Assembly (NCBI GenBank): GCA_913065025.1
Contig: CAJYAP010000001.1
Location: 1-49,544 of the forward strand
Direction: 5' to 3'
Source of the DNA: an uncultured Gammaproteobacteria bacterium
GTDB lineage: Bacteria; Pseudomonadota; Gammaproteobacteria; Poriferisulfidales; GCA-002705445
DNA: 49,544 nucleotides
Position numbers and translations under genes: made by a program. This document shows, piece after piece, positions 141 to 14,013 of the stretch. Position 1 is the first letter of the stretch, and each line of letters begins with the position of its first letter. The notes below the pieces were generated by a model, which saw nothing but the letters and a program-made list of their open reading frames with translations, ran no database searches and was not told the DNA's origin.

Positions 141-593
141 ATGAATCACGAATTTTATATGAAAGAATGTATCTCTCTTGCAAAAATGTCAAAAGAATAC
201 GGTGAAGTACCAGTAGGAGCTATGTTGTTAAAAAATAATAAAATTATTTCTAAAGCTCATAATACATCAATAAGTCTTAGTGACCCTACCGGACATGCAG
301 AAATAAACGTTATAAGAGACGCCTGCAAAAAAATAAATAATTATAGAATTAATAATTCAGTTTTATATGTAAGTCTTGAGCCTTGCTTGATGTGTATATC
401 AGCTATATGTGAAGCAAGAATAGAAAATGTTATTTTTGGAGCGTATGCAGATTATGATAAGAATTTTCAAAGCAAGTTTAATTATGTAAAGAATAGATTT
501 AAATTAAACCATACGCCAAAATTTATTGGCGGTATTTTAGAAGAGGAATGCTCGTTACTTATTAAAAATTTTTTTAAGGTTAAGAGAAGCTAG
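141..593 (+). CDS. tadA: tRNA-specific adenosine deaminase TadA
   Basis: Cytosolic zinc deaminase converting adenosine-34 to inosine in tRNA-Arg(ACG), which allows decoding of CGU, CGC and CGA. The 150-residue protein has the cytidine-deaminase fold signature: H52-A-E54 (zinc ligand and proton-shuttle Glu) and P81-C82-L-M-C85 (two zinc cysteines). The usual family length is 150-170, so it is complete. The N-terminal stretch EVPVGA is typical of TadA. Its 3' end overlaps the convergent mltF by 39 bp. The tadA-mltF neighbourhood is also found in Escherichia coli (beside purL), which supports the assignment. No strong Shine-Dalgarno is visible upstream. Confidence 0.95.
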   Translation: MNHEFYMKECISLAKMSKEYGEVPVGAMLLKNNKIISKAHNTSISLSDPTGHAEINVIRDACKKINNYRINNSVLYVSLEPCLMCISAICEARIENVIFGAYADYDKNFQSKFNYVKNRFKLNHTPKFIGGILEEECSLLIKNFFKVKRS

Positions 594-12399: not shown

Positions 12400-14013
12400 A
12401 TGAGTAATATAGTATTAGCAACAAAATGGCGCCCAAAATTATTTTCTGACCTTATAGGACAAGATCCTGTGGTTACAGCACTTATAAATAGTTTGGACAA
12501 TCAAAGACTTCATCATTCATATTTATTTACAGGCACTAGAGGAGTTGGTAAAACGACTTTAGCAAGAATTTTAGCTAAATGCTTAAATTGTGAGACTAAT
12601 GGAGTTAGTTCAAAACCTTGTGGAAAATGCGCAAGTTGTTTAGCTATAGATGCTGGTCAGTTTGTTGATTTATATGAGGTTGATGCTGCATCAAGGACAA
12701 AAGTTGAGGATACTAGAGAGCTACTAGAGAATGTTCAGTATTTGCCAACTCAAGGAAGATTTAAAATATATCTCATTGATGAAGTTCATATGCTTTCAAC
12801 ACATAGTTTTAATGCATTATTAAAAACGTTAGAAGAGCCACCTGAACACGTCAAATTCATTTTAGCGACTACTGATCCTCAGAAAATTCCTAGCACAATA
12901 TTATCTAGATGCTTGCATTTTAGTCTAAATAGAATATCAGCTGAAGTAATTAGGAATCAGTTAGAGAAAGTCTTAACAAACGAAAATATTAATTTTGAAG
13001 AGAACGCAACAAAAAATATTTCAAAGATAGCTGATGGAAGTATGCGTGATGCATTAAGTATATCAGAACAATGCATATCTCATGGAGATAATAAAATTAC
13101 ATATAATAATATATGCAAAATATTATGCTTAATGCCAGCAGAAAATATTAATGAAATAGTAAATTTAATAGTAAATAACGATGTAAAAAAATTAATGGAT
13201 TTAATTGAGCAAATGTACTTCCAGACAGCAGATTTCAAATATATTTTGGAAGAACTGATTTCAATCTTTCATCAAACAGCAATGTTTAAAGTTACAAATA
13301 AGCTGAATGACAGCATATATGATACAAGTATAAAAAGTTTGTCAGAAAAATATAGCGAAGAAGAAATTCAAGTTTTGTACCAAACCGGAGTTGCAAATTT
13401 AAAAGATATAGAGTTTGCACCAGATCATAAAAGTGGTTTTGAAATAGCATTAATAAGAATGATATTATTTATGCCTTTCAAAATAGATACTAGCGAAGAA
13501 AATAATAACAATGGTAACTTAGAAAAAATATCTTCCAAAAAAAAACCATCAGATCAAGACCTTAATCAAAAAAGTTTACAAAAAAAAAATAATTCAAAGG
13601 AAAAAGAAGTTCTATCTATAGAGAACAATTGGGAAATAATAGTAAAAAGACTTGATATTGATTCAATTACTAGAAATTTGGCAAAAAATATTATTTTTGA
13701 TAAAAAAATAGATAATACTTTGCATTTTCTTATCGGAGAAGACCGCGCTAGCGTTGTTACAGAAAAATCAAAAGATAAGCTTAAAGAGGCTCTAACAAAT
13801 TATTTCGGTAATGATATAAAAATATTTATAGAAACTTCAAATAACGATTTATCTACACTTCATAAAAAGGATGAAGAAGATTATAATAATAAAATATCAA
13901 ACGCCGATAAAATAATAAATAATGATGATTTTATTAAAACTATAAAAGAAAAATTTGACGCTACTAGCGTTGAAAATTCTGTACAAATTAAAGATCTAAC
14001 TAATGGAGAATAA
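12400..14013 (+). CDS. dnaX: DNA polymerase III subunits tau/gamma
   Basis: Clamp-loader ATPase of the replicative polymerase. Domain I has Walker A GTRGVGKT at 45-52, the four-Cys zinc module (C64, C74, C77, C80), Walker B DEVH at 127-130 and the SRC sensor at 169-171. Domains II-III extend to about residue 365. A Lys/Asn-rich linker then leads to a shorter C-terminal part of about 130 residues. Total length is 537, less than E. coli tau (643). Two homopolymer A tracts (9 A at 13537-13545, 10 A at 13580-13589) fall in the linker and could make a short gamma form. First gene of the dnaX-ybaB-recR operon. Confidence 0.96.
   Translation: MSNIVLATKWRPKLFSDLIGQDPVVTALINSLDNQRLHHSYLFTGTRGVGKTTLARILAKCLNCETNGVSSKPCGKCASCLAIDAGQFVDLYEVDAASRTKVEDTRELLENVQYLPTQGRFKIYLIDEVHMLSTHSFNALLKTLEEPPEHVKFILATTDPQKIPSTILSRCLHFSLNRISAEVIRNQLEKVLTNENINFEENATKNISKIADGSMRDALSISEQCISHGDNKITYNNICKILCLMPAENINEIVNLIVNNDVKKLMDLIEQMYFQTADFKYILEELISIFHQTAMFKVTNKLNDSIYDTSIKSLSEKYSEEEIQVLYQTGVANLKDIEFAPDHKSGFEIALIRMILFMPFKIDTSEENNNNGNLEKISSKKKPSDQDLNQKSLQKKNNSKEKEVLSIENNWEIIVKRLDIDSITRNLAKNIIFDKKIDNTLHFLIGEDRASVVTEKSKDKLKEALTNYFGNDIKIFIETSNNDLSTLHKKDEEDYNNKISNADKIINNDDFIKTIKEKFDATSVENSVQIKDLTNGE
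13580..13589 (+). promoter_or_regulatory. Candidate slippage site producing the gamma form of DnaX
   Basis: A run of ten A lies in frame as CAA-AAA-AAA-AAT-AAT. Inserting one A in the transcript, or a -1 ribosomal shift, makes the next codon TAA, ending the protein at about residue 397, immediately after domain III. Thermus thermophilus is known to make gamma by transcriptional slippage on an A tract, and E. coli by a -1 shift on A-AAA-AAG. A weak GTTCT/AGAAC hairpin follows at 13609-13626. Function here is inference. Confidence 0.5.

Follow-up and report, generated by a model that had tools for sequence, protein, structure and literature searches.

Poly-A slippage in dnaX is already known from Thermus and from split genes. 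The transcriptional slippage of Thermus thermophilus (Larsen et al. 2000) is taken here as described in PMC1088944 and PMC5009743, and the portions of those papers used describe a gene in which tau is a single open reading frame, a run of at least nine A residues lies late in the gene, stops stand nearby in both shifted frames and the short product is gamma. Escherichia coli dnaX uses -1 programmed ribosomal frameshifting, which in the relevant section of PMC3711429 involves A_AAA_AAG, an SD-like element and a stem-loop. The same section gives 17 GeneTack split dnaX genes, 12 of them with poly-A, where slippage lies between the tau and gamma frames. Blochmannia, a reduced AT-rich gammaproteobacterium, also has a homopolymer in dnaX, and the excerpt of PMC3017870 that treats it places the tract in the tau-only region, where slippage would restore tau. 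Whether cells need gamma at all is disputed, at least in the discussion given in PMC5009743. In the literature searched, which mostly lay outside subscription papers, we found no description of Thermus-type slippage in a single-ORF dnaX from the Gammaproteobacteria. What we add is a gammaproteobacterial case and an arguable repeated origin across the class.

The dnaX gene studied here lies in a window of 49,544 nucleotides, the whole stretch of DNA that was analysed. It belongs to a draft genome of 982,694 bases that is AT-rich and 83% complete (Table 1). Tau is a single open frame that runs through the tract (a 537-residue ORF with PF12170 at 408-527). The A9 and A10 tracts reported by the sequence-only reading are both present and in frame, and they fall in the stretch that separates domain III from the C-terminal domain of tau. 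An in-frame run of at least nine A residues after domain III is one mark of Thermus-type slippage, and this gene has two. That reading put the linker between domains III and IV, which is mistaken. Pfam gives the residues as far as 356 to the clamp-loader ATPase, the lid and domain III, and has tau domain V begin at 408; none of the 25 families listed for the product is a domain IV model, so we describe the linker as III-V. Structures of E. coli gamma/tau, e.g. 1jr3, can be aligned with residues 1-359.

Table 1. Positions of the features discussed; coordinates are those of the window unless a locus is named.
Feature	Position	Strand	Remarks
dnaX, DNA polymerase III tau, 537 aa	12400..14013	+	ORF call, Pfam
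Clamp-loader core; linker; tau domain V	residues 1-359; about 360-407; 408-527		dnaX product
A9 tract	13537..13545	+	codons 380-382, phase 0; auxiliary or incidental
TAA reached after +1 in A9	13563..13565	+	388-aa product
A10 tract	13580..13589	+	codons 394-397, phase 1; principal proposed slippage site
TAA reached at once after +1 slippage in A10 (or -1 ribosomal shift)	13590..13592	+	397-aa gamma-like product
TAG reached when one A is lost from either tract	13619..13621	+	406-aa product
Tau domain V coding region	13621..13980	+	PF12170, residues 408-527; missing from short products
Second open frame of split dnaX, G341	L264:2571-3119	+	encodes tau domain V, PF12170
Second open frame of split dnaX, G260	L272:1067-1549	-	encodes tau domain V, PF12170

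The Thermus gene is the closest match, although the present one comes from an AT-rich gammaproteobacterium, pairs its A10 with a nearby A9, has a tract whose position drifts within the genus, and is known from sequence alone. The E. coli system shares the gene and the outcome, a gamma ending one codon after the shift, but in the window the linker lacks an in-frame A_AAA_AAG, and neither an SD-like element nor a hairpin was found. The GeneTack genes resemble it in having poly-A in dnaX, yet they are of a two-ORF type in which tau requires the frame change, whereas here tau is the default frame and gamma the slipped product.

We believe that the A10 tract probably makes gamma by Thermus-type transcriptional slippage, and that the product is used. 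Tau would be read from the single open frame. RNA polymerase would slip on the A10 and produce mRNAs with A10 (tau), A11, A9 and other lengths. One A gained would put TAA directly in frame and give a 397-residue protein ending in QKKK, while one A lost would put TAG in frame nine codons on and give a 406-residue protein. Such products would retain the entire clamp-loader core without the alpha-binding domain V, and so would be the gamma subunit. The immediate TAA, the length of about 397 residues and the truncation after the core (residues 1-359, against slipped products of 388 and 397) all agree with what the sequence-only reading had said. It was wrong to put the stop nine codons beyond the A9, since an insertion there is followed by six further codons (TIRSRP) and then TAA. 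The two A6 runs at 13523 and 13568 yield identical truncations. Three points of this argument are ones that we infer: a useful frequency of slippage, transcription as the step at which it happens, and the use of gamma. The tract lengths themselves are those of draft assemblies. One published observation counts against us, as the part of PMC6260861 concerned states that in E. coli T runs make RNA polymerase slip more readily than A runs do.

It would be easy to give the placement of the stops too much weight. Stops are near in both shifted frames of the A10, with products of 397 and 406 residues, but 73% of the linker's codon positions have stops no more than 12 codons away in both shifted frames. 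A linker this AT-rich should have near stops anyway, and their placement in the window is therefore weak evidence. We also rejected the immediate TAA as evidence by itself, because an insertion gives a stop as the next codon at 16% of the codon positions in the linkers of the genus. Taken as a group, the eight tract sites of the genus have somewhat nearer insertion stops (P=0.005), and P is 0.06 for deletion stops. Close stops in two frames fail to discriminate in the window because AT-rich linkers are dense in stops, but they do discriminate in GC-rich relatives.

The same 397-residue product, QKKK and then a stop, would result if the ribosome slipped instead, by -1 frameshifting or by sliding on an in-frame A_AAA_AAA. 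Such a heptamer is in frame at 13581-13587, inside the A10, and E. coli ribosomes slide along iterated AAA codons according to the results we could draw on from PMC4363877. Atkins et al. suggest, in the passage of PMC5009743 on this subject, that a second tRNA-Lys may explain why Thermus uses RNA polymerase slippage. Our host seems to have a single type, as E. coli does and Thermus does not (tRNA-Lys(ttt) is the sole tRNA-Lys among 27 tRNA places in the 83% complete genome), so the second-tRNA argument does not favour transcription here. Despite these points we consider the ribosomal explanation unlikely. The E. coli-type stimulators were looked for at the window tract and rejected: there is no SD-like element within 25 nt upstream and no significant downstream hairpin (80 nt, MFE -7.8 against a shuffled mean of -7.6, z -0.09). 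The linker has no in-frame A_AAA_AAG, and its sole A6G begins in phase 1, where phase 2 would be required. The phase of the tract also differs among relatives. Finally, only the insertion frame has to offer a stop for a -1 ribosomal frameshift, and the presence of near stops in both frames therefore argues for transcriptional slippage; across the class stops are also close in the deletion frame, which -1 frameshifting does not use.

The argument for transcriptional slippage gains from the treatment of long A runs elsewhere in the genus. We took the dnaX-bearing stretches of ten same-genus genomes and called 1412 ORFs, of which 78 containing N, the G001 dnaX included, were left out of the shuffling counts. 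Expected counts come from shuffling synonymous codons within genes, for 1325 N-free other ORFs and nine N-free dnaX genes. The other genes have 10 runs of at least ten A where 76.0 are expected and none of at least eleven where 26.1 are expected. Runs of at least nine are mildly depleted, at 187 against 285. The avoidance of such homopolymers is strong for ten or more A residues and only mild for nine or more. The A9 is ordinary, and we rejected it as evidence by itself because runs of at least nine are common in those genes; the host genome has 23 such CDS tracts on its 142 kb contig. The nine N-free dnaX genes have 8 runs of at least ten against 5.3 expected and 3 of at least eleven against 1.7. 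Baranov et al. argue, in the portion of PMC1088944 that bears on this, that under-representation of A runs in coding regions suggests that an organism is prone to slippage on them. By that reasoning the genus data suggest slippage-prone runs, strongly for ten or more A residues and mildly for nine or more. Replication slippage could also cause the under-representation.

Comparison between orthologs gives the same picture. Linkers of dnaX have a run of at least ten A in 7 of the 10 same-genus genomes, at least nine in 8, and A11-A13 in 3. Conservation in relatives was named by the sequence-only reading as a test of its proposal, and the outcome favours it, since most of the same-genus linkers have the tract, at shifting positions. 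Among 117 reciprocal-best-hit groups, each present in at least 5 genomes, dnaX ranks first for runs of at least ten (7/10 genomes), the next group has 2/7, five groups have 1 and 110 have none. A search for A11 in 12 family genomes, in which all but one of the 31 matches listed were inspected, found dnaX to be the only gene with a sense run of at least eleven in more than one genome, and the longest run among the inspected matches is the A13 of the G002 dnaX. No dnaX match was found in G009. Other genes with an in-frame A11-A12 occur in one genome each, e.g. L197 (G004:C1:21606-21617), and are candidates for unprogrammed slippage; the product of one such gene is, we assume, an RbfA-like protein. 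The presence of the tract is conserved in the genus, and its position and phase are not: they vary over codons 373-394, and the tract positions, together with an alignment that covers 5 of these 10 proteins, led us to reject positional homology.

These data must be weighed against the idea that the tract is an accident which the cell tolerates. On this view A runs come about in a Lys-rich linker within an AT-rich gene, they are not purged because truncated DnaX does no harm, and slippage occurs without being used. From linker amino acids and genome codon use, runs of at least ten are expected in 4.6 of the 10 linkers, and the 7 found are no significant excess (P=0.065). Position and phase drift, as an accident would have them do, and the 98% complete G003 lacks the tract, the longest run in its linker being an A6; G010 has just an A9. 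The genus data alone show that dnaX is exempt from the avoidance seen elsewhere; they do not demonstrate positive selection. Yet equally Lys-rich windows of other genes avoid runs of at least ten eight-fold (6 against 49.5 expected), and dnaX differs from them at P=1e-5. Relaxation also cannot easily explain the runs with close stops in two frames that we describe below from genomes of 45-71% GC, or the retention of the tract in both sampled members of the genera g131 and g60. An accident seems improbable to us on these grounds.

One could also object that homopolymer lengths are artefacts of assembly or sequencing. The genomes are drafts, and the dnaX tract of G001 (L005) has an N inside it, at about linker codon 387; perhaps this reflects reads that disagree about the homopolymer, or strain variation in tract length. 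This objection is largely refuted and we give it very little credence. Tau stays in one open frame in all ten same-genus genes, eight of them with A9-A13, and tracts also occur in single-contig genomes of other lineages (G150 = L317, G127 = L261).

Support for transcriptional slippage also comes from outside the genus. We surveyed 201 further gammaproteobacterial dnaX loci by one tblastn-based method (8 from the same order, 80 from named genome contigs and 113 others), and 60 of the surveyed regions are the first 60 of the listed matches for which a locus was still lacking. Some species may have entered more than once, and L310 and L328 share one genus. Within 100 codons after the core, 21 of the 201 loci have a run of at least nine A, which is no estimate of the class frequency since the choice of loci depended in part on resemblance to the window protein and in part on a small genome; 9 have at least ten, and 180 have no run of nine. 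The cores have none (0/201), and no T9, G9 or C9 run was found in the surveyed linkers. With expectations taken from shuffled linker codons, runs of at least nine occur in 10 of 53 linkers against 3.8 for GC below 0.45, 11 of 148 against 0.53 for GC of at least 0.45, and 4 of 101 against 0.06 for GC of at least 0.55. Genes with a tract span about 28 to 71% GC. Thiothrix caldifontis and Thalassolituus have A10 in the linker and Oceanospirillum sanctuarii has A9. An A9 also stands in the linkers of two congeneric genomes with 70-71% GC, in one of which both strands together contain only two A9 sites over 2.2 Mb.

The stops that say little in the window say more here. For the 11 tracts at GC of at least 0.45 an insertion leads to a stop within 0-9 codons and a deletion to one within 0-6. 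Compared with linkers without a tract, this proximity gives Mann-Whitney P=1e-5 for insertion and 3e-7 for deletion, values that are optimistic because the backgrounds pool neighbouring, non-independent positions. Together with the tracts of the genus, these GC-rich tracts lend support to the Thermus-type reading of the window gene, in which the slippage itself is deduced from the DNA.

The tract may be a floating element. In a FastTree made from the cores, at least 15 changes of its state fall outside the family, with 20 of the 200 rows having a tract. Among sampled relatives it is present in g131 (2/2), g60 (2/2), f106 (2/2), f111 (3/3) and f132 (2/3), and patchy in g136 (1/3), f133 (1/3), f88 (1/2) and f144 (1/3). 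We lean toward the view that poly-A slippage for gamma has arisen repeatedly across the Gammaproteobacteria, with selection acting on a long A run somewhere in the linker plus stops in two frames and not on a fixed site, and with one-base changes able to swap the default subunit. If the class keeps re-evolving a slippery run in this linker despite its avoidance elsewhere, even in GC-rich genomes, that would speak, on evolutionary grounds, for gamma being useful. It would also provide a signature for predicting the route to gamma from sequence: a long A run in the dnaX linker and stops in two frames, with no ribosomal stimulators.

The default subunit does seem to differ in two surveyed genes. 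The zero frame of dnaX ends shortly after the tract in G341 (A9) and in G260 (A10); with one A added, the open frame would be 544 codons long in the first and 496 in the second. Tau in these genes would need a frame change at the tract, to judge from their reading frames, and they fit the GeneTack two-ORF type as the window gene does not. Their same-family relatives have single-ORF dnaX with the tract, so that in the families f111 and f132 single-ORF and split genes both carry it. Gene decay or sequencing error could be another source of the split.

In two further linkers, L368 (G122) and L367 (G210), the base after the A10 is G, and the run therefore finishes in an in-frame A_AAA_AAG. As far as these motifs can tell us, polymerase slippage and ribosomal frameshifting could be combined there at one site. 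In the 0.3 Mb genome G186 the dnaX frame has 374 codons (L266:1483-2604, minus strand) and extends no further than the clamp-loader core, as though gamma alone were left.
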